From the IMG/VR virus record IMGVR_UViG_3300034683_000087, positions 1 through 41,001 of that record: a stretch of 41,001 bases of DNA. One strand, given 5' to 3'. Position numbers and translations under genes: made by a program. The notes below the pieces were generated by a model, which had not been told where the DNA came from, made no database searches, and saw only the letters and a list, made by a program, of their open reading frames with translations. Of this stretch, positions 11,243 through 34,034 are shown piece by piece (positions within the stretch are counted from its first letter, which is position 1; every line of letters begins with the position of its first letter). Origin of the DNA: a virus.

Positions 11243-12723
11243 GCATCACCTCCATACATATTGATCGTTATAGTGTCGGCGGTAACAACTGCGTTTTCAG
11301 CAGGTGTAATAATATCTTCAACAGGAGAGATAAATTTAATAGATTTAACTCCCTCAATACTAGACTTCATCTCTGCGCTCAAATCACTAAGAATAACTTC
11401 TTCACCAAGTTTTCTGTTACCTACAGTAAAATAAGTGTAAATATAGTAATTGATCTGATTTTGAATAGTAGCTTGAGAGTAGGTATCACTGATTGTGGCA
11501 CTAACTTCAATCGTTAAAGCTTCAGTTAATGGCTCAAGTATATCGCATTCACCTTTAAGGATTAAATGCTCGTACAGAACAGGTAACACTTCTTCTCTGG
11601 TAGCATCAAAATCATAATAAGGATTGACTACTACATACACATTAGCAATATCATTTTCAACGTCATACACAGCGCAAGAGGATAAAATCTTGTCAGAGTA
11701 ATTGAGGGTGATAAAAGACTCAAAATCTTGTAATGTAACAATACCCCAACGAACAGAACTGTAGATAGGAGCATTCAATTTGATACTACTCAATGACTCA
11801 GCATTTTTACCATAGACAATTGGAGAAGAAGGATTAAATGTTGTTTTTACTACTGTCTGTAGTGAAGCATCAGTACATATAGTAATTGTGTTGGCAGAAA
11901 CATTACCAATTAACCCGCCACCAATTCTGTAAGTGGCATAAATAGGGTTAGAACTTGCAGGTGGAATTGCCCCTGTATTACCATCTCCAAATACTACGAA
12001 TGTAGTACCAACTTCACCAACAGTGGCTCGGAAATGCAAGGAATCAGGCAAAGAGTCAATGAATGAATCAACTTTAGTCCATTTTTCATATTCAGAACCG
12101 TTATACACTGAAAGCACGATAGAATCAGTGATAATATCTTTATGTTTAAGCATGTATTTAGCATTAGGATAACCTGCGGAAATTCCAACATAAACAAGAG
12201 AAACAGTGTAACCTTGTTTAACAGGTACTAAGTACTTGTACTTGCTAATTCCACCATCGTTAGCAATACTGCCACCAGAATACTCATCCCTAATTTCATC
12301 ACCAAGTTCACCTGCGGGAATAACAAGGTCTTCAGTGGTTTCAAAAATAGTTCCATCAAGAGTCTTAACAATAGTTCCGGCAGGTATAGTGGTATCTGTT
12401 TCAGAAGCAGAATAGAGAGTGAAGCATTGCATAACAGTAGAAGCGGTTGCGGAGTAAGGAGAGTAACCTAAAATTTCACACCATACTTCAGCACTTGATC
12501 TTAACTGACAAGTGGTAATAAAACATTCATTGGCCATTGAATCTTGGTAGTAACTAAGTACGTCAAGTCTTTCAGCTAGAGCTTCTATAATAGCAATTCC
12601 CGCATCACTTTGAGAAGTATCGGTATATTCAGGTATTCTAGTTTGCAGACCATTAATCATCTCAGTTCTAAATGCTTCATAGTCTTTACTAGTATAATCA
12701 ATAGTAAGTGTAGGTGTTCTCAT
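11239..12723 (-). CDS. Baseplate J-like wedge protein (T4 gp6 / P2 gpJ family)
   Basis: 494 residues. The N-terminus TIDYTSKDYEAFRTEMI and SDAGIAIIEALAERLDVLSYY are hallmarks of baseplate J-like proteins, and the middle GTIFETTEDLVIPAG followed by GGGLIGNVSANTI is the conserved J core. It forms the wedge ring that triggers sheath contraction. It lies between the gp25-like and gpI-like genes, the standard order for contractile baseplates. Confidence 0.92.
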   Translation of the reverse strand: MRTPTLTIDYTSKDYEAFRTEMINGLQTRIPEYTDTSQSDAGIAIIEALAERLDVLSYYQDSMANECFITTCQLRSSAEVWCEILGYSPYSATASTVMQCFTLYSASETDTTIPAGTIVKTLDGTIFETTEDLVIPAGELGDEIRDEYSGGSIANDGGISKYKYLVPVKQGYTVSLVYVGISAGYPNAKYMLKHKDIITDSIVLSVYNGSEYEKWTKVDSFIDSLPDSLHFRATVGEVGTTFVVFGDGNTGAIPPASSNPIYATYRIGGGLIGNVSANTITICTDASLQTVVKTTFNPSSPIVYGKNAESLSSIKLNAPIYSSVRWGIVTLQDFESFITLNYSDKILSSCAVYDVENDIANVYVVVNPYYDFDATREEVLPVLYEHLILKGECDILEPLTEALTIEVSATISDTYSQATIQNQINYYIYTYFTVGNRKLGEEVILSDLSAEMKSSIEGVKSIKFISPVEDIITPAENAVVTADTITINMYGGDA

Positions 12724-22883: not shown

Positions 22884-23366
22884 TTATACTTCTCGGATGT
22901 TCTCAAACTGGATTGTAGCTTTCTCAATAAGAACATCAGCACTAGTAGCATCTAAGTCGCCCGCCTCCCATTTAGAAGCCCAAGCTTCTTCCAGAATGTA
23001 TTGTCGTTGAACGACTCCTATTCTGTCCAAGTAGCTTAATGTAATAGTAGTACGACTTACAGAATCAGTCAATACTTTCTTGAATAAGTCTTCAAGAGTC
23101 GTATCAGCAAACATACCACGTTCTAATGTTAATTCAGAGAACTTTTCTCGTCCAGATAACTTATGTGCATGGTCAAACATACCTTCTAAGTATTCAATAA
23201 CTTCAATTTCACGACTTAAACCACTGATCTTCTGGAATCCAATTTCAGTAGGAAGTCCTTCAATTGAAAGACGGAACATGAATTTTTGTAAGGGGTCATC
23301 AGCTATTGTACGAGACATAGCTTTAGCAGTAATGAAGCCAAATAATCCCATTTTCTTTAATACCAT
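22884..23366 (-). CDS. Tail tube protein (gp19-like)
   Basis: 160 residues, the usual size of the contractile-tail inner tube subunit. It has FMFRLSIEGLPTEIGFQKISG, then EIEVIEYLEGMFDHAHKLSG and LTLERGM, the conserved sequence of T4-like gp19 tube proteins (IEG, F-x-x-V/I-S/T-G-L, E-x-x-x-Y, K-L-x-G, L-x-x-RG). It forms stacked hexameric rings inside the sheath. The gene is followed by a strong terminator, consistent with its high copy number. Confidence 0.93.
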   Translation of the reverse strand: MVLKKMGLFGFITAKAMSRTIADDPLQKFMFRLSIEGLPTEIGFQKISGLSREIEVIEYLEGMFDHAHKLSGREKFSELTLERGMFADTTLEDLFKKVLTDSVSRTTITLSYLDRIGVVQRQYILEEAWASKWEAGDLDATSADVLIEKATIQFENIREV

Positions 23367-23382: not shown

Positions 23383-24822
23383 TTAATCTACTAAGTGACT
23401 AATAGTGAAGATAACAAAGTTAGCTGATACATTAGGTCGATATGCAACTTGACAGATTAGTTGTTTATCAGCAATTGTTTCCGCAGTATTATTCTCAGTA
23501 TCGCATTTAGTAAAGAAAGCTTCAGCAGAGGTTGCACCTCTTAAGCTACCTTCTTTCCAAAGATCACCCAGAATACCATCGACTTGTATTTTAACTTGTT
23601 CCATCAATAACTCATTGATAGACTTAAATACAACCCATTTAGTACTTCTGTAAATATATGTTTCAAGCCAATTTCCAAGTAACAGGTTAGCACCACGTTC
23701 AAAACGTGAATCTGCAGAAATACTAGTATCTCCCCAAATAACGATGCCATAGTCAGGGTCATTGACAATTGGATTAATTTGACCAGAGTATAAGTCAGTT
23801 AAGTCGTCTTCATCTAAATAATCAATATTGACGAATCCTTTAACTACAGCGTTTATACCGGAAGGAGATTGACCAATACCGTACTCTCCAACCATTCGGC
23901 AAATAACGCCCATAATATGACCACTAACAGGAACTTCTTTAGTAGAACCAAGAGGTGATAGTGGATCAATTACATCAGCAACTGGAGGGAAGTAAATCAT
24001 AGCATTACCTTCTAGTCCCGCAGTTCTCAGGCCAAGAGCTTCAGTAGCAGTAGTAGTAGGAGCAAGGTCTGGGAAGACAACCACTTTCTTAGTATCAGCA
24101 TAGGTGATAAGAGCGGTTCTAACAGTAGTAGAAGTTTGTCCGGGAATAGCAATCATACTCAGGTCTTGAAGAGCACTGAAAGATGTTAAAGCATCAGTAA
24201 AATCATCATCAGCAATATCGTCAATACCGTCAAGTCCACCAGTCATTGCAGTAACAGCTTGAGCTACAAGAGTACCTGTAGTAGAGGTAACGTATCGACT
24301 ACTATTATTAAGTACTTCTAAGAAGTAACGTTCATCAGTAGTAGTATTTGATACATTGGTAAAGGTTTCTACAGTAACAGCAGTTCCACTTGCAGTTGAT
24401 GAAACAACGATATCAAAGTTAGATACATTAACAGCATTGGCAGTAACAGTAACAGACAGTTTATTTCCCCAAGTACCTTCGTCTTTAGCAGAAATAATAG
24501 GCCCTGTTCCGACTTCACCAATCTGTACACTTGCTACATCACTAGTGTCGCTAGTTACACGAGTAACATAACATTTTCCACCACCATTCAGGAAATATCC
24601 ATAAACGGAATAAGCAAGAATACTGTTTAAGTAAAAAGGACTGGTCATACCTTTGGCAAATTTAGAAACAAATTCTGCCCAAGATCGAACTTCCTGTGCT
24701 ACACCAACAGTTCCACGTTCGGTGACACCAATGAAACCAGAAACAGTTCCACTCATAGTGGTATCAACTTTTTGTGAGTTTGGCTCTCTTTGTACGTAAA
24801 CGTCAGGAATAATGTAAGCCAT
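23383..24822 (-). CDS. Tail sheath protein
   Basis: 479 residues. The N-terminus MAYIIPDVYVQREPNSQKV and GTVSGFIGVTERGTVG are the typical phage sheath start (P-G/D-V-Y plus T-x-x-x-G-F-I/V-G), and the C-terminal domain has YIYRSTKWVVFKSINELL and QVAYRPNVSANFVIFTI, seen in sheath proteins. Domain arrangement is that of the compact Firmicutes-phage sheath. Its presence defines a contractile (myovirus) tail. Start overlaps the preceding small gene by TAATG. Confidence 0.95.
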   Translation of the reverse strand: MAYIIPDVYVQREPNSQKVDTTMSGTVSGFIGVTERGTVGVAQEVRSWAEFVSKFAKGMTSPFYLNSILAYSVYGYFLNGGGKCYVTRVTSDTSDVASVQIGEVGTGPIISAKDEGTWGNKLSVTVTANAVNVSNFDIVVSSTASGTAVTVETFTNVSNTTTDERYFLEVLNNSSRYVTSTTGTLVAQAVTAMTGGLDGIDDIADDDFTDALTSFSALQDLSMIAIPGQTSTTVRTALITYADTKKVVVFPDLAPTTTATEALGLRTAGLEGNAMIYFPPVADVIDPLSPLGSTKEVPVSGHIMGVICRMVGEYGIGQSPSGINAVVKGFVNIDYLDEDDLTDLYSGQINPIVNDPDYGIVIWGDTSISADSRFERGANLLLGNWLETYIYRSTKWVVFKSINELLMEQVKIQVDGILGDLWKEGSLRGATSAEAFFTKCDTENNTAETIADKQLICQVAYRPNVSANFVIFTISHLVD

Positions 24823-27809: not shown

Positions 27810-28847
27810 TCACGCAGTTTCAATGATAACTCCATAATTCGCATGAAGTTTACCTGATCCAAAAATAGCGTACCATGCTAATGATCGTTTACGACCAAAG
27901 TCTTCAACGCCATTATCACGAAGCTCTACAGGTAAAGAAGTGGCCATACCATAATAAGCATCACCAAAAATAACTGCTTGATATACATCAGTTAAGTTTC
28001 CACTAGCACCTGCAACTAAATCGGCATCATAAGATGGAGAATCAACTTCCGCTGAACCGTTTAGCATAAGAGTAGTTTCAACAAATCGAACGTTATCGAT
28101 ACGACCAATTTCACCATAGAAAGGTAAAGTAGGAGCACCATAGTTAGAAGTGTTGATCCATGCAGGGTCATCTCGTAAGTCACGAGACTGGTGAGGGTGA
28201 ATAATACAAATCCAATCCTGTCCATTATACAGTGGAGCATTTTCGGTAGCCAGAATTTCCAGAGCATCTTTAACAGTAGATACTTTGAATTTACAGGTAG
28301 GAGTTAAAGTGGCACGAGTAGAAATAGCAGTACCATCTGCTTCATCGGCATAAACAACTGAAGTACCACCAGTGGTAGACAGTGCGGTATCTCGTAGCAT
28401 ACAGTCAACAACAAGAGCATAGTCACGAGCCAGTAAGGTAGTAGTAGTGTTCATGATATCATCAAAAGATGACTGAATTAACAGCTCAGAACTTGAAACA
28501 GCGTTACCATACTCAGTAACGGAAATTTGTTTTAAGCTACCGCTGATAGCCTGAGTAGTCATGTCAGTAAGCTCTGTTAAAGCTCCGCCCATTGACAGGT
28601 TATCATAGGTCAGCATACTAATAGTAAGACCGGGTTCAACACCAAGTTCGGTTTTAATGGTAGCAAACTGAAGGAATCTCATATTAGGCTGTGCCTTAAA
28701 TTCGATTTCTTTGGAGTATACCATTCGTACACCATCAGAGAACAATGAGTTTACACCCGCTTCTGTGGCTTTTACAGCAGTAGTGACTTCAGCCTTTGCA
28801 GTAATACTAAAAAGACTTAATAAGTTGAATTTCTTGATAGAGTCCAT
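27810..28847 (-). CDS. Major capsid protein, N4 gp56-like
   Basis: 345 residues. Segments such as MVYSKEIEFKAQPNMRFLQFA, LTISMLTYDNLSMGG and LTELTDMTTQAI, plus the end RSLAWYAIFGSGKLH, fit the N4 gp56 major capsid family (HK97 fold). The N-terminus MDSIKKFNLLSLFSITAKAE has the same SIK start and SITAKAE end as the scaffold protein encoded just upstream, indicating a shared processing or targeting signal. It follows the scaffold and precedes a strong terminator. Confidence 0.9.
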   Translation of the reverse strand: MDSIKKFNLLSLFSITAKAEVTTAVKATEAGVNSLFSDGVRMVYSKEIEFKAQPNMRFLQFATIKTELGVEPGLTISMLTYDNLSMGGALTELTDMTTQAISGSLKQISVTEYGNAVSSSELLIQSSFDDIMNTTTTLLARDYALVVDCMLRDTALSTTGGTSVVYADEADGTAISTRATLTPTCKFKVSTVKDALEILATENAPLYNGQDWICIIHPHQSRDLRDDPAWINTSNYGAPTLPFYGEIGRIDNVRFVETTLMLNGSAEVDSPSYDADLVAGASGNLTDVYQAVIFGDAYYGMATSLPVELRDNGVEDFGRKRSLAWYAIFGSGKLHANYGVIIETA

Positions 28848-28884
28848 TTAAAAATCTCCTTTTTAAAATAAATTTTTAATAAGT

Positions 28885-29652
28885 TTATTTAAGTCCAGTT
28901 TGATTCTTACGCCATTCAGCGTACTCGTCAAGACTCATATCTCTGACCTGCTGTGCATTGAACACTTCTGCAAGTTGTGTATTTGATGGATTCATTAAAG
29001 ATGGTTTTGAGGGTGGTGTTTCGGGATTAGCTTCCTTTTTAGTGATAGCATTCCCTTCTTCATCCACTAAACCTAACAGTTTCTTCGTTTCCAACGTCTT
29101 AGCAGTTGCAACTTCGATACTACTGTCGATTTCTTCAACGGTTTTTCCATCAACCAGATCAATGAAGGTTGGTAGAATAGAGTCTTTTAACTCGTTAAGT
29201 TTTTCGGACTTGTAAAACTTAACTTCATACTCTTTCTCAATTTCTGCTCTTAAATTTTCTTCGGTAGTAGATGCTTTCTCCGCTTTATCCAATTTCTTCT
29301 GTAGAGTCTCGACTTCTTTTTTCAGGTCAGTCATTACTTCACTCTCTTGGTCATTAAGTTGTTTCTCTAAAGTCGCAACTTTAAGAAGGTTAGCATTGTT
29401 GGATTTAGTCATGGCTTCAAGATCAGCTTCTAATTTATCGATACGAGGATAAAGTTTATCTTTTTCCTCTTTACGAGCTTTCGCCATCAAGTCTTCCATA
29501 TTGATAGTAGGTTCACTTGAAGGTTTAGATACTGGTGGTTCTTGATTTGCCACTGGCGGTTCAGATTCAGTTACCTGTTCTGCTTTGGCAGTAATTGAAG
29601 TGCAACTAATTAGCTTAAATATTTCTGATTTCAAACGATTTTTGATAGACAT
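28885..29652 (-). CDS. Capsid scaffold protein
   Basis: 255 residues, highly charged, with a long coiled coil from about residue 50 to 160 (MEDLMAKARKEEKDKLYP, LEADLEAMTKSNN) and a C-terminal helix ending MSLDEYAEWRKNQTGLK, the usual layout of phage scaffolds of the DUF4355/gp7 type. The N-terminus MSIKNRLKSEIFKLISC is followed by SITAKAE, matching the capsid leader. It guides procapsid assembly and leaves afterwards. No protease motif is evident in it. Confidence 0.85.
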   Translation of the reverse strand: MSIKNRLKSEIFKLISCTSITAKAEQVTESEPPVANQEPPVSKPSSEPTINMEDLMAKARKEEKDKLYPRIDKLEADLEAMTKSNNANLLKVATLEKQLNDQESEVMTDLKKEVETLQKKLDKAEKASTTEENLRAEIEKEYEVKFYKSEKLNELKDSILPTFIDLVDGKTVEEIDSSIEVATAKTLETKKLLGLVDEEGNAITKKEANPETPPSKPSLMNPSNTQLAEVFNAQQVRDMSLDEYAEWRKNQTGLK

Positions 29653-29733: not shown

Positions 29734-31332
29734 TTATCTGTGTCTGCGATCAATTTCATCAGCGGATTTAATGTTTAAAGGTATATCTTCGCCCAAATTA
29801 CTGGCTGATTTCTTCTTTACAAGTGGTTGTGTATCTTCACCATTAGTCATGCCACTATTAAGTTCAGGAGTTACTTCAAGACCATAAAGAGCAGGGTTTT
29901 TCTCCATGTCCTCATCGATCTCGTCTAGTTTGGCATCTATATTTTCACGACCAAGACGAGCCATAGCTCCTTTACGACTTTCAAGGCCAACGGCCATCTC
30001 AGCTTGAATCTGTTGCATCTCAATTAGCATATCTTTAGGTAAGGTATCAGGAATAGTAACCTCGTTGTAACAAAATTCTCTTAGGGGTACGTTATTAGGG
30101 TTAGTGATAAGTCCCTCTCGTAAAGAAATCAAAATAATAAGCTTATTGATTATTTCTAATGCATTTTCGGTACTGGCTTTCTTAATATTGGTCTTATCAA
30201 TGAGTGGAAGGTTGATATAGTGTAGGGCGATACCACTAGTATTACTGATATTCTGCTCTCCACCTAAACACGATTCAGGGATTCCCGCAACTTCACACAT
30301 TGCTTTCTTAATATTAGCCAAGTACACAGTACTAGCGGTTAAGTCAGACTTTAACTCCAAGTTTTCTACTCTGGCATCTTTAGGAATACCACCCCACATC
30401 TTATTAGCACCTTTTTCAATGCTACTCTGTTTAGCTCCAAACAGAATAGTAACAGGTGAAGCATGATAGTCGAGTATTTCAGATACGTCACTTGCTTTGA
30501 GGTTATATTCAACATTTAAAGGGATTAAATCTTCTAGGTCACTTTTACCATACTCTTTATTTGCGACTGAAATATTGCGAATCTGGATAAAAGGAATGGT
30601 ACTGTAAGGGTTAGGGTAGTTAGCAGTATTAATTGCACCACGAAACTCTTGAATCTTATCTTTAGTCCAAACTTGTTTAAAGATTACTTTAGTGGTAGAT
30701 TTTCGGCCACCATAAAAAGTCTTTTCTTCTTCCTCAATTGGGTACATAAGAGTTAATTTAACTAACTTATCTTTATCATGAGGATCGTACTCAGGAAAGA
30801 CATTACCAGTATTCTTTAATGACACTTTGATACGGCCATTAGGATACTCTTCAAAAGGATCATCAAGTTCATCAGGACTTTGATAAGTTACTTGTACCCA
30901 AGCTTCACCTGTAACACTCTTCATAATCCCCATTTCAGAGCAAAATAAGTTCTGTTTATTATCAATCCATACATCAGACAGGTACTCAAACAACGTTCTA
31001 CCACTGATTACCACTTTTTCATCATCTTTGTCTATGATATAAGGTTCATCAGTAACAATAACTTCTTCTTGAGTATCAAGCTTAATAGTAAAAGACTTTC
31101 CAAGTTCAAAACTGACAAACTTATCACAGAAAGCTCGACAATAATTAAACGTGATTTCAGGTTTACCAGTTGGTTGAACATCTTCCCAATGAAAACCTTC
31201 ATAGAAGTTCCAGTTATTGCGAATAGTTTTGATTCTTTCAAGCTGTTTATTGTCAAGTACCCCATCTGCACCAAGCAAACCAATACTATCTAGCTCAACT
31301 ACAGAGCTTCTTTTTCTTTCAAATCCAACCAT
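29734..31332 (-). CDS. Portal protein (SPP1 gp6-like)
   Basis: 532 residues, a common portal length. It has WNFYEGFHWEDVQPTGKPE at the N-terminus, TLFEYLSDVWIDNKQ, LIPLNVEYNLKASDVSEIL and a helical C-terminus with LGRENIDAKLDEIDED, matching the portal family that begins with a Y-x-G element. It forms the dodecameric ring at the head vertex to which the terminase docks. It starts two bases after the terminase stop region and belongs to the late block. Confidence 0.9.
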   Translation of the reverse strand: MVGFERKRSSVVELDSIGLLGADGVLDNKQLERIKTIRNNWNFYEGFHWEDVQPTGKPEITFNYCRAFCDKFVSFELGKSFTIKLDTQEEVIVTDEPYIIDKDDEKVVISGRTLFEYLSDVWIDNKQNLFCSEMGIMKSVTGEAWVQVTYQSPDELDDPFEEYPNGRIKVSLKNTGNVFPEYDPHDKDKLVKLTLMYPIEEEEKTFYGGRKSTTKVIFKQVWTKDKIQEFRGAINTANYPNPYSTIPFIQIRNISVANKEYGKSDLEDLIPLNVEYNLKASDVSEILDYHASPVTILFGAKQSSIEKGANKMWGGIPKDARVENLELKSDLTASTVYLANIKKAMCEVAGIPESCLGGEQNISNTSGIALHYINLPLIDKTNIKKASTENALEIINKLIILISLREGLITNPNNVPLREFCYNEVTIPDTLPKDMLIEMQQIQAEMAVGLESRKGAMARLGRENIDAKLDEIDEDMEKNPALYGLEVTPELNSGMTNGEDTQPLVKKKSASNLGEDIPLNIKSADEIDRRHR

Positions 31333-31334
31333 TT

Positions 31335-34034
31335 TTATCTCCTTCTACCAGTGAATTTGTTTCTATCAAGGTACATGTTTTGGGTTCTTCCACTAATAAA
31401 ACCTCTACGGTCATTAGTGGTAGTAATCTCATTAACGAAACCTTTATTCATACAACCTAAGATAGATAAAGCCATTGAATCTGGGTAATCATCTCTACCC
31501 TCTTTGGTAGGCGGATGAGCAACTACCATATAAGAACCTCTCCAACTCTTTTCAAGGTCTTGGAGTTGAGCCAAACATCTATTGTACTCACCAGTCTTTT
31601 TGGTTTCCTCACCTCCCGGAATATTGACACGACCACTATTTACTTCTCTTTCAAAATTTTTATATAAATCTGATTTGCTTTTACTGCTAAATACATACTG
31701 AACGACTTCATAAGCTGTATTGGCATTTATACGATCAGCTAACGCTCGTTCTTTAGTAGTGTCTATTACTACTCTGGCAATCTTATAGTTACTTAGAAAA
31801 TGCATGATTTCTGTGTACTGCTCTTCAAAATTAGGAGTATTAGATATCTCTTTCCACGCTTTAACATAGGTGTTATAGCACTGGTAAAAAACCTCTTCAC
31901 CAGTTTCTTCATCAGTACGACTTTCAAGAACTACAGGCATTTTCCAATCCACCTCAGTAACGGTGACTACAGTACTATCACTACCACCACCTACATCAAT
32001 ACCTACTACATGAGTGGCTGTTTTATCATAAGGTACTATGTCATAATCAGGATTAACGTTATTAGCTTCAAAATCGGCAATGTCAATAAACATACCACGC
32101 TGTAAGATCCATTCCAGACAATAAGAAAGACGAAATGCATCTGATTTTTCACCTAATCTTCGCTTCTCTTGTTCAACATATTTTCTGTACTTCTCATTGT
32201 ACTTTGAAACTATCAAATAATTATACTCAAAATGATTTTTGACCCTAATAACTTTATCTTCAAAATCTTTTTTATTTCTTTGAATAGAGTGATAAAAGTC
32301 ACCTTTCTTAGTAGAAGCAGTTCCAATTTTTATAAAAGTAGCATTATAGGCCGCTCCCATAGGGCTAATCGACTTTTGAATTTTAAAATCACTAATATCT
32401 TGACAATTGTGTACTAAAACAGAATCAGAAAAAAAGTTATGATTATCTTCAACAGTTAAATCGTATACTGTAATATTTTCATGCTCTTCTATTGATACCC
32501 CTGTTATAAAGACTTTTTCTGATCTAAGTATCCCTGTTTGTAGTATATTTTCTGTTGTTCTCTCTTGCACTCCTTTGAACAGACTAAGGAAGTGCTTCTG
32601 TAAGGTACAAAATCTTTTCCACAAATTACACATTTTTTTGACTCGTCGGTTATTTGTATCTTGTACATCATACTTTCGTGCATATAGGGTAGAACTAGTC
32701 TGTGAAATTTGTTTCTTTCTGAGGCGGAAAAAGTTATATGATAACATGAAATCTCCACATTTTGCAAGGTCTGCTCTAAAATAACCTTCATTATTTAAAA
32801 ATATTTTGTGGTTATCTGTGCATTTTAAAGTTTCACCATTACTAAGAGTTATAGTAACTATCTTTCTTTCATACAATTGTTGGTTAAAACTTCTTAAAAC
32901 TTTTTTATGTTCAATAATTTTTAAATCGTGGTTATAGGATAAAACATTATCTCCTACTTTTACATCTTCAACATTTACCAGACCCTTTGGGGTAGATATT
33001 TTAGAGCCTTTTACTAAACACTCCTCACAGATAATAATCTGAAATGACTCGCCTTCAATATTAGCTCCGTCACTAGCTGAAATAGCGGTTACAAAAGAAC
33101 CATTAGTTAAAGCCACAGTAGTACCATTACTTGTAGAAAAACCAATTTTAAAATCTGGATCGGATAATATTTCCAATCCTCTTTGTCCTTCTACTTTATT
33201 TCTTATCTTACCATAGGTAGTTTGTGCTTGTCTCTGACTGGGAGCAAAAATACCAATCATTACACCACGCTTGAACATTTGTAGTCTAGGGTCATCTGCA
33301 AACATAGGCATATTGGCTAACTTGGGTAGAATAACCATTAAACCTGCACTAACCATACTAACTGTCTCACTTTTGCCACTGTTGTGTACTTTTACACCGT
33401 TGCAAATAAACCAACCTTTATTAGGATAGGTGACATCATACACTCGATGAGTCCCTTCTAATTGAGCAATTGAAATAATATCAGACAGGCTTAACTCTTC
33501 ACCATCTTCACCAATTTCATATAAAGGAAAGTTATTAAAATGGCCAGTCTTCATTAGTACATTGTTAATAATAGATTCTGTTGAACATGACTTGTAATAC
33601 TCTGGATTCATATTATAGTTATGCTTATCCCATTTACTTAACACTACTATCTTGTCATTTAATCTTAGAAGACCTGCTTTAACCCAGCCATGATCTGTCA
33701 TAACAGGATGATTAGCTGTGCATTTTAGCACATAACCACCCTTAGCTTTGATCTCCAAAACTTTTGCATTTTCATTAGTCACCCAAGAATCTGGATGATC
33801 TTCAATTTTAACTAAGTCACCTTCTCTAGTATGTATCAACTCACCTTCCAAAATACATTGACGAGAGAATAAAGCAGTAATCTCATTACCATCATTAGTT
33901 AATACACTCCTAATAATACGTCTGGCAAATTGTTCTTGATAGGGATACATTTTTAACCCCGAAAAAAGTTCACAAAAAGCTATTACTACGTCAACTAGCT
34001 CTTTTGTTGATTTTCTGTTCTTGTTTTCACTCAT
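31335..34034 (-). CDS. Terminase large subunit (DNA packaging ATPase/nuclease) with two inteins
   Basis: 899 residues as translated, 535 after removing two inteins (residues 60-218 and 339-543). The ATPase domain has a P-loop split between SRQ and SGKSE by intein 1, and a Walker B IIICEE followed by C544 QDIS, split by intein 2. The Walker B aspartate is replaced by Glu. The C-terminal RNase H-type nuclease shows GIDVGGGSDSTVV (first acid), VVIDTTKERA (second) and DDYPDSMALSI (third). It drives DNA into the procapsid through the portal. Both inteins must splice for a working enzyme. It is the first gene of the late block; no small subunit is recognisable next to it. Confidence 0.95.
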   Translation of the reverse strand: MSENKNRKSTKELVDVVIAFCELFSGLKMYPYQEQFARRIIRSVLTNDGNEITALFSRQCILEGELIHTREGDLVKIEDHPDSWVTNENAKVLEIKAKGGYVLKCTANHPVMTDHGWVKAGLLRLNDKIVVLSKWDKHNYNMNPEYYKSCSTESIINNVLMKTGHFNNFPLYEIGEDGEELSLSDIISIAQLEGTHRVYDVTYPNKGWFICNGVKVHNSGKSETVSMVSAGLMVILPKLANMPMFADDPRLQMFKRGVMIGIFAPSQRQAQTTYGKIRNKVEGQRGLEILSDPDFKIGFSTSNGTTVALTNGSFVTAISASDGANIEGESFQIIICEECLVKGSKISTPKGLVNVEDVKVGDNVLSYNHDLKIIEHKKVLRSFNQQLYERKIVTITLSNGETLKCTDNHKIFLNNEGYFRADLAKCGDFMLSYNFFRLRKKQISQTSSTLYARKYDVQDTNNRRVKKMCNLWKRFCTLQKHFLSLFKGVQERTTENILQTGILRSEKVFITGVSIEEHENITVYDLTVEDNHNFFSDSVLVHNCQDISDFKIQKSISPMGAAYNATFIKIGTASTKKGDFYHSIQRNKKDFEDKVIRVKNHFEYNYLIVSKYNEKYRKYVEQEKRRLGEKSDAFRLSYCLEWILQRGMFIDIADFEANNVNPDYDIVPYDKTATHVVGIDVGGGSDSTVVTVTEVDWKMPVVLESRTDEETGEEVFYQCYNTYVKAWKEISNTPNFEEQYTEIMHFLSNYKIARVVIDTTKERALADRINANTAYEVVQYVFSSKSKSDLYKNFEREVNSGRVNIPGGEETKKTGEYNRCLAQLQDLEKSWRGSYMVVAHPPTKEGRDDYPDSMALSILGCMNKGFVNEITTTNDRRGFISGRTQNMYLDRNKFTGRRR
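32406..33020 (-). other. Intein 2 in terminase, inserted after the Walker B motif (205 aa)
   Basis: Starts with Cys339 (block A CLVKGSKISTPKGLVNVEDV), block B TLKCTDNHKIFL, followed by ADLAKCGDFML, block F VYDLTVEDNHNFF and the end LVHN before Cys544 as the +1 residue. The roughly 80 residues between GDFML and the second half are Lys/Arg-rich, contain no endonuclease motif in frame, and overlap an out-of-frame zinc-finger ORF (32504-32791). Confidence 0.93.
32504..32791 (-). pseudogene. Out-of-frame zinc-finger ORF inside intein 2 (probable displaced intein insert)
   Basis: 95 residues in a different frame from the terminase. It contains CVICGKDFVPYRSTSLVC then SKEC, a C-x2-C-x13-C-x3-C zinc-ribbon like those in phage homing endonucleases, plus KFHRLVLPYMHE earlier. 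The ATG lacks a ribosome binding site (AT-only upstream), so an independent gene is doubtful. Likely explanations are two compensating frameshifts that moved an old insert out of frame, or overlapping coding. See findings. Confidence 0.5.
33381..33857 (-). other. Intein 1 in terminase, inserted in the Walker A motif (159 aa mini-intein)
   Basis: Starts with Cys60 (CILEGELIHTREGDLVKIED, block A), has block B LKCTANHPVMTDHGW (T-x-x-H), block F VYDVTYPNKGWFI and ends KVHN before Ser219 as the +1 residue. No LAGLIDADG or HNH motif; at 159 residues it is close to the minimum for cis-splicing. The joined extein reads FSRQSGKSE, a good P-loop. Confidence 0.93.

Follow-up and report, generated by a model that had tools for sequence, protein, structure and literature searches.

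Ala-x-Ala leaders on structural and packaging proteins of a phage clade suggest processing by a phage signal peptidase-type protease

Where tailed phages are known to mature by proteolysis, the proteases sit inside the prohead and act there on head proteins. In SPN3US and similar phages, such a prohead protease cuts head proteins after AXE (PMC10052503), the pre-coat of the filamentous phage f1 is cut by the signal peptidase of the host (PMC3185693), and the preprotein of nickel superoxide dismutase (NiSOD) has a protease of its own that cleaves it during maturation (PMC8346466). Our literature search for phage signal peptidases and capsid maturation returned no tailed-phage precedent for capsid, tail or packaging proteins.

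We analysed a stretch of DNA (the window) of 41 kb (41,001 nucleotides) that forms part of a virus record. Its head genes encode a terminase with intein insertions, a portal, a scaffold and a capsid protein of the N4-gp56 family; its tail genes, for sheath, tube, tape measure and baseplate, are those of a contractile-tailed phage, and replication genes follow. Of annotated phages, Streptomyces phage BRock and its relatives come closest; they share these genes yet lack the leader, and their scaffold, capsid and tube begin where the window leader ends. Judging from sequence comparisons, we consider it probable that the phages described below process structural and packaging proteins with a signal peptidase-type protease of their own.

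Leaders on capsid, scaffold and tail tube

The first-pass annotation had noticed that the major capsid protein (MCP, 27810-28847, minus strand) and the scaffold (28885-29652, minus strand) are both headed by SITAKAE, and direct reading of the two N-termini (MDSIKKFNLLSLFSITAKAE and MSIKNRLKSEIFKLISCTSITAKAE, respectively) bears this out. Synonymous codons differ between MCP and scaffold just as it had claimed, namely for Ser (AGT/TCA), for the Ala residues (GCA/GCC and GCT/GCA) and for Lys (AAG/AAA), those for Ile, Thr and Glu being identical. What had been noticed is genuine but not the whole: another copy, ITAKA, had been overlooked and heads the tail tube (22884-23366, minus strand), where it forms residues 12-16 (codons ATT ACT GCT AAA GCT) of an N-terminus that reads MVLKKMGLFGFITAKA/MSRTIADDP (the slash marking the predicted junction) and runs on as MSRTIADDPLQ. 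In all six frames of the window ITAKA occurs three times only, each time at the N-terminus of a structural protein, and among the 46 predicted window proteins it is the only 5-mer common to three N-termini, a result that shuffled N-termini gave in 4 of 5000 trials. The ATGs of MCP and scaffold both follow good Shine-Dalgarno sites, and a strong ribosome-binding site precedes the leader ATG in all three genes, while the internal ATG of the tube, behind its leader, has none in front.

Within the MCP, the predicted leader (MDSIKKFNLLSLFSITAKA) spans 28791-28847 (minus strand) and would be cut behind its last Ala to leave a mature part (27810-28790, minus strand; N4-gp56 family, TIGR04387; PHROG 1357) with which leaderless MCP orthologues align only from about residue 30; an AF2 model of the MCP (pLDDT 33) was left out of our argument. 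The scaffold leader (MSIKNRLKSEIFKLISCTSITAKA; 29581-29652, minus strand) precedes a mature part (28885-29580, minus strand) homologous to Streptomyces phage scaffolds from residue 30 onward. That of the tail tube (23319-23366, minus strand) stands before the retained Met-Ser-Arg-Thr start of a T4 gp19-like protein (22884-23318, minus strand; PF06841, TIGR02241). Portal (29734-31332, minus strand) and tail sheath (23383-24822, minus strand) served as negative comparisons, neither having a leader in the window or in its relatives. The terminase large subunit (31335-34034, minus strand) has no leader in the window but has one in six distinct relatives. Two stretches of the window terminase match Pfam Intein_splicing, as expected of two intein-like insertions, and the terminase of a related genome (G002) is unusually long (1792 aa) and also appears interrupted; both proteins are leaderless.

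The leader in related phages and its predicted cut site

A clade of relatives emerged from MCP profile searches; single-protein scans of viral contigs with the MCP, tube and polymerase of the window gave no matches. The first-pass annotation had proposed to look for the leader in relatives, and more than 25 related contigs carry the same design, so the motif is not absent from them. These contigs are metagenomic and their hosts uncertain, one lying in a metagenome-assembled genome (MAG) labelled Thermosipho and another in a Bacillota MAG. The leaders are 6-34 residues long, basic or hydrophobic, and diverge in sequence from phage to phage, and what is kept is the end, (A/V)-(F/Y/H/K)-A, after which a normal protein start follows.

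MCP, scaffold and tube carry the leader almost always and the terminase often, as does a small basic protein. Counted over distinct N-termini, the motif lies near the start of 25/27 scaffolds, 25/28 MCPs and 12/16 tubes, which makes these the three large families that stand out for it among the 73 of the clade. A loose form of it occurs in 25 of 26 MCP N-termini from the clade versus 5 of 38 from the leaderless outgroup, the latter being chance matches, and the MCP N-termini of leaderless relatives outside the clade are shorter by ~12 residues. Two families with loose-motif scores, HU-like and SpoVS, were rejected as they have no N-terminal extension. No single leader is indispensable, for the window and G002 have terminases without one, and G004-G006 and L132 have tubes without one.

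The small protein is rich in Arg and Gly, is encoded between the QueC and FolE genes and has leaders of only 6-9 residues (MMKAYA, MFTVHA, MFIKVFA, MFKLREAFA). Small Arg/Gly/Ser-rich proteins of ~55-64 aa with such short A-x-A leaders were seen at L178 12722-12901 (G006:C1:50722-50904), G001:C10:25333-25500, G008:C1:10730-10903, G002:C40:24193-24387 and near 11647 of G007:C1; the one scanned against families, from G006, had no match. Capsid proteins of the same family from Bacteroides phages (L003 11887-12882, L004 11881-12876) begin with a long hydrophobic segment (MNTLLFIVVAFVLPFLSGLFFG...). We did not count these, because the hydrophobic N-terminus comes without an S26 (signal peptidase) gene, none having been found in the two records.

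The junction was defined by lining up, at the presumed cut, 77 distinct leaders that represent five protein families. Position -1 is Ala in 76/77, the exception being Cys in a terminase; Ala or Val occupies -3 in 72/77, Phe, Tyr or His -2 in 62/77, and Lys, Arg, Asn or Thr -4 in 63/77. At +1 we see Asp or Glu in 47 of the 77, within a range of D/E/A/V/S/G/M/Q/N. Taken together, 75/77 leaders obey the -3,-1 small-residue rule of type I signal peptidase, and elsewhere within the same leaders A/V-x-A is found at 14 of 1448 positions. MCP junctions were placed by eye, whereas in tube and scaffold the position at which the mature protein begins sets them; the latter alone have Ala at -1 in 39/39 and give the same profile.

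The tubes provide an independent view of this junction. Leaderless ones (G004-G006, L132) begin with MARTIANDPLQ or MARTFSNDPLL, that is at the predicted cut point of leader-bearing tubes (KAFA/SRTI, KAYA/ARTF, NAHA/ARTA, LKVHA/MART, ITAKA/MSRT), and minus their Met they start like the predicted mature N-terminus of relatives (KAYA/ARTFSSDPLQ). The old Met is retained behind the junction in the tubes of the window and of L125. The residue at this place, Glu in the MCP and scaffold of the window, gives way to Met in its tube, and relatives have D, A, V, S, G or Q instead. Since the rule for -1 and -3 and the starts of leaderless tubes fix the junction, this Glu would be the residue behind the cut and merely a common one there; a prohead-protease site at Glu was rejected as the residue is not conserved. 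The earlier suggestion of a maturation site shared by both proteins and served by an enzyme encoded elsewhere is well supported, in contrast to the enzyme type (T4-like) and the bond (after Glu) that came with it.

Leader ends also resemble each other within a genome, across non-homologous proteins: ITAKA occurs three times in the window, -THA and -VHA in G008, and -NVYA, -SVFA and -KVFA in G001. Identity over four positions averages 1.57 within genomes versus 1.13 after shuffling genomes within families (permutation p = 5e-5). Such likeness is expected if one protease co-evolves with all of its substrates, although copying of leaders between genes would raise it, too.

A signal peptidase-like gene of the relatives

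The first-pass annotation stated that no protease gene is recognisable between terminase and capsid and that the enzyme would have to be elsewhere. This agrees with our data in that the window has none and the candidate gene of the relatives, a signal peptidase of MEROPS family S26, lies at a distance. It came to light in the full contig of L086 as a 112 aa protein that starts with a hydrophobic helix and has the full set of signal peptidase I motifs. Every record of the leader clade that is long enough (G001, G005, G006, G007, G008) has the gene, and among independent genomes with enough sequence the count is 5/5, the near-identical G005 and G006 being taken as one. In the G002 MAG, a short phage-like copy sits on a second contig beside the same neighbours, and the MAG has a separate, ordinary host LepB of 187 aa as well. 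By comparison, 0/18 leaderless related records carry the gene, 14 of them being phage records of at least 70 kb, and leader and S26 gene thus co-occur with a Fisher p = 9e-5 (five species versus the 14 leaderless records >= 70 kb).

The phage proteins (112-140 aa) are encoded at a fixed locus which in most genomes runs nuclease, peptidase, SpoVS, QueD/QueE/QueC, small leader protein and FolE; SpoVS-like, QueD, QueE, QueC (queuosine-type) and FolE were identified by eye from sequence. The SpoVS-like gene adjoining the phage signal peptidase is found at L102 2631-2900 (G001:C10:21631-21900), with equivalents in G005, G006, G008 and G002. In relatives, the S26 locus lies ~7 kb beyond the point that matches the end of the window. 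The gene is missing from the 41 kb window fragment and from other short clade contigs, all of which end before the locus; the sequence of the window stops inside the DNA polymerase gene, upstream of it. Its own protease is for this reason predicted rather than seen, and we infer that the phage of the window has an S26 enzyme beyond the sequenced end.

The catalytic Ser (SMxP), the Lys (KR) and GDN...DSR are invariant in 5/5 aligned phage proteins. Four of the five pass the cut-off that TIGR02227, the model for signal peptidase I, sets (>47 bits) and that of G008 reaches 36.8 bits; the G001 protein also matches PF10502 (55.6 bits). Among NCBIfam models, signal peptidase I comes out for 4/5, with the model of the NiSOD maturation protease (TIGR02754, SodX) next or close behind. 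The latter, a member of the signal peptidase superfamily in line with the model scores, gives 31-57 bits (E 1e-7 to 1e-15) for the phage enzymes, under its cut-off of 63.25; bacterial signal peptidase I is nearer to the phage proteins than SodX is. A good AF2 model of the phage protease (pLDDT 84.7) found signal peptidases as its best Foldseek matches and LexA-type relatives after them, at borderline E-values. No match to the relatives' protease was obtained in a tblastn search of 50,697 phage records. S26-like proteins were noted on other viral contigs (L199 9989-10453, L201 9983-10447, L202 9980-10438), one of which is 300 kb long; in L199 and L201 these genes adjoin trypsin-like, subtilisin-like and DnaJ/DnaK-like genes.

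Leader processing, its alternatives and known systems

Together, leaders and S26 gene suggest a way of maturing the virus particle that has not been described. We propose that proteins which polymerise or load DNA (capsid, scaffold and tail tube, joined in many relatives by terminase and the small basic protein) would be synthesised behind a short leader, basic or hydrophobic in character, that has Ala-x-Ala at its end, and that a phage-encoded, membrane-anchored serine protease of the signal peptidase I type would cut behind the last Ala, at ITAKA/E in capsid and scaffold and at ITAKA/M in the tube. That the leaders are cut, and cut by the phage S26 enzyme, is what we infer from the junction profile and from co-occurrence.

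An alternative sees the leader as a tag for docking or membrane targeting that stays on the protein, the phage peptidase then serving other exported proteins. Leaders that are basic and partly hydrophobic would suit such a tag, as would the targeting role which the first-pass annotation had considered, and cleavage is itself a prediction. Yet a leader body that diverges while only the small residues at -3 and -1 persist is what one expects of a cleavage site and not of a docking element, and the junction coincides with the start of leaderless orthologues, so that we regard an uncut tag as unlikely. A role in capsid targeting alone is at odds with the leaders of tail tube and terminase.

Quite unlikely, to our minds, is a scenario in which the leaders are classical Sec signal peptides, removed by the host signal peptidase from proteins that truly cross or enter the membrane as the f1 coat does (PMC3185693). 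In its favour are the A-x-A rule, the basic N-terminus and the hydrophobic core seen in several MCP leaders (for example MKKFLAMILSFMSTIFHLTAYA), but a core long enough to enter the membrane is present in only some MCP leaders (family means of the best 8-residue hydropathy, 0.15-1.9), Lys or Arg is common at -4, and MMKAYA, MFTVHA and MLKVHA are too short to span a membrane. Moreover, the phage brings its own enzyme, terminase and capsid must act in the cytoplasm, and the known functions of capsid, tube and terminase argue against export.

A T4- or phiKZ-type protease cutting behind Glu within the prohead is very unlikely. MCP and scaffold would be classic substrates for it, Glu follows ITAKA in both of these window proteins and gp245 of SPN3US cuts after AXE (PMC10052503), but Glu is not conserved, is absent from the window tube and would not be the P1 residue, which is Ala in 76/77, and the leader-bearing proteins include tube and terminase, which are not inside the prohead. 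Nor did the search for a prohead protease that had been recommended recover one: no S78 or ClpP-type match was found in the window and its relatives (7 clade records), with positive controls that responded, whereas a search for S77, likewise without match, left its positive controls silent as well. Chance similarity or wrongly chosen start codons are hardly credible, for although the motif is short and made of common residues, it recurs in 77 leaders, strong ribosome sites precede the leader ATGs and for the window alone shuffling gave the result in 4 of 5000 trials.

Returning to cleavage by the phage enzyme, one point against it is that signal peptidases normally cut on the outside of the membrane, while the cytoplasm is where capsid, tube and terminase function. 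Since these proteins act there and leaders can be as short as six residues, ordinary export seems unlikely and we would expect the active site to face the cytoplasm. Seven phage enzymes have 0-1 Lys/Arg before the membrane helix as compared with several in the host LepB (MSEKKSELMEW), and so few positive charges may weakly allow an inverted orientation. One could thus envisage, tentatively and with more doubt than confidence, a private, inverted signal-peptide system in which the leaders of capsid, scaffold, tube and packaging proteins would direct them to the membrane on its cytoplasmic side and an inward-facing phage peptidase would free them, one enzyme gating head and tail assembly in space and time. 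Our most speculative conjecture is that the leader, as long as it is in place, keeps subunits that polymerise separate from one another or bound to the membrane, or prevents them from assembling too early.

If cleavage by the phage enzyme holds true, a virus signal peptidase I would be a second, unrelated solution to maturation, extending to tail and packaging motor, and a secretion enzyme could be turned to virus assembly; the A-x-A rule is simple and testable in one expression experiment.

How does this compare with described systems? Its likeness to the prohead proteases of T4, phiKZ and SPN3US would lie in N-terminal propeptides being taken off capsid and internal head proteins as the particle assembles, but these are proteases of another type which cut after Glu and act inside the prohead, whereas the clade studied here also marks tail tube and terminase, and its motif is A-x-A. 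The f1 pre-coat is likewise a viral coat protein with a signal peptidase-type leader; it is, however, inserted into the membrane and cut by a host enzyme. Phage f1 is not a tailed phage and is not known to carry a signal peptidase gene. Type I signal peptidase itself (MEROPS S26, TIGR02227/PF10502) has the same Ser/Lys motifs, an N-terminal membrane helix and the A-x-A rule; the enzymes described here differ in being phage-encoded and shorter (112-140 aa versus 187 aa for the host enzyme of G002), in presumed substrates that are cytoplasmic structural proteins and in leaders of down to six residues. Among SPN3US, the filamentous coat and NiSOD, it is NiSOD maturation that the phage system would, by analogy, most resemble in how it works: in both, a dedicated protease would cut the leader of a preprotein, albeit from a single enzyme in a cell in the case of SodX, and from a whole set of virion proteins in that of the phage.
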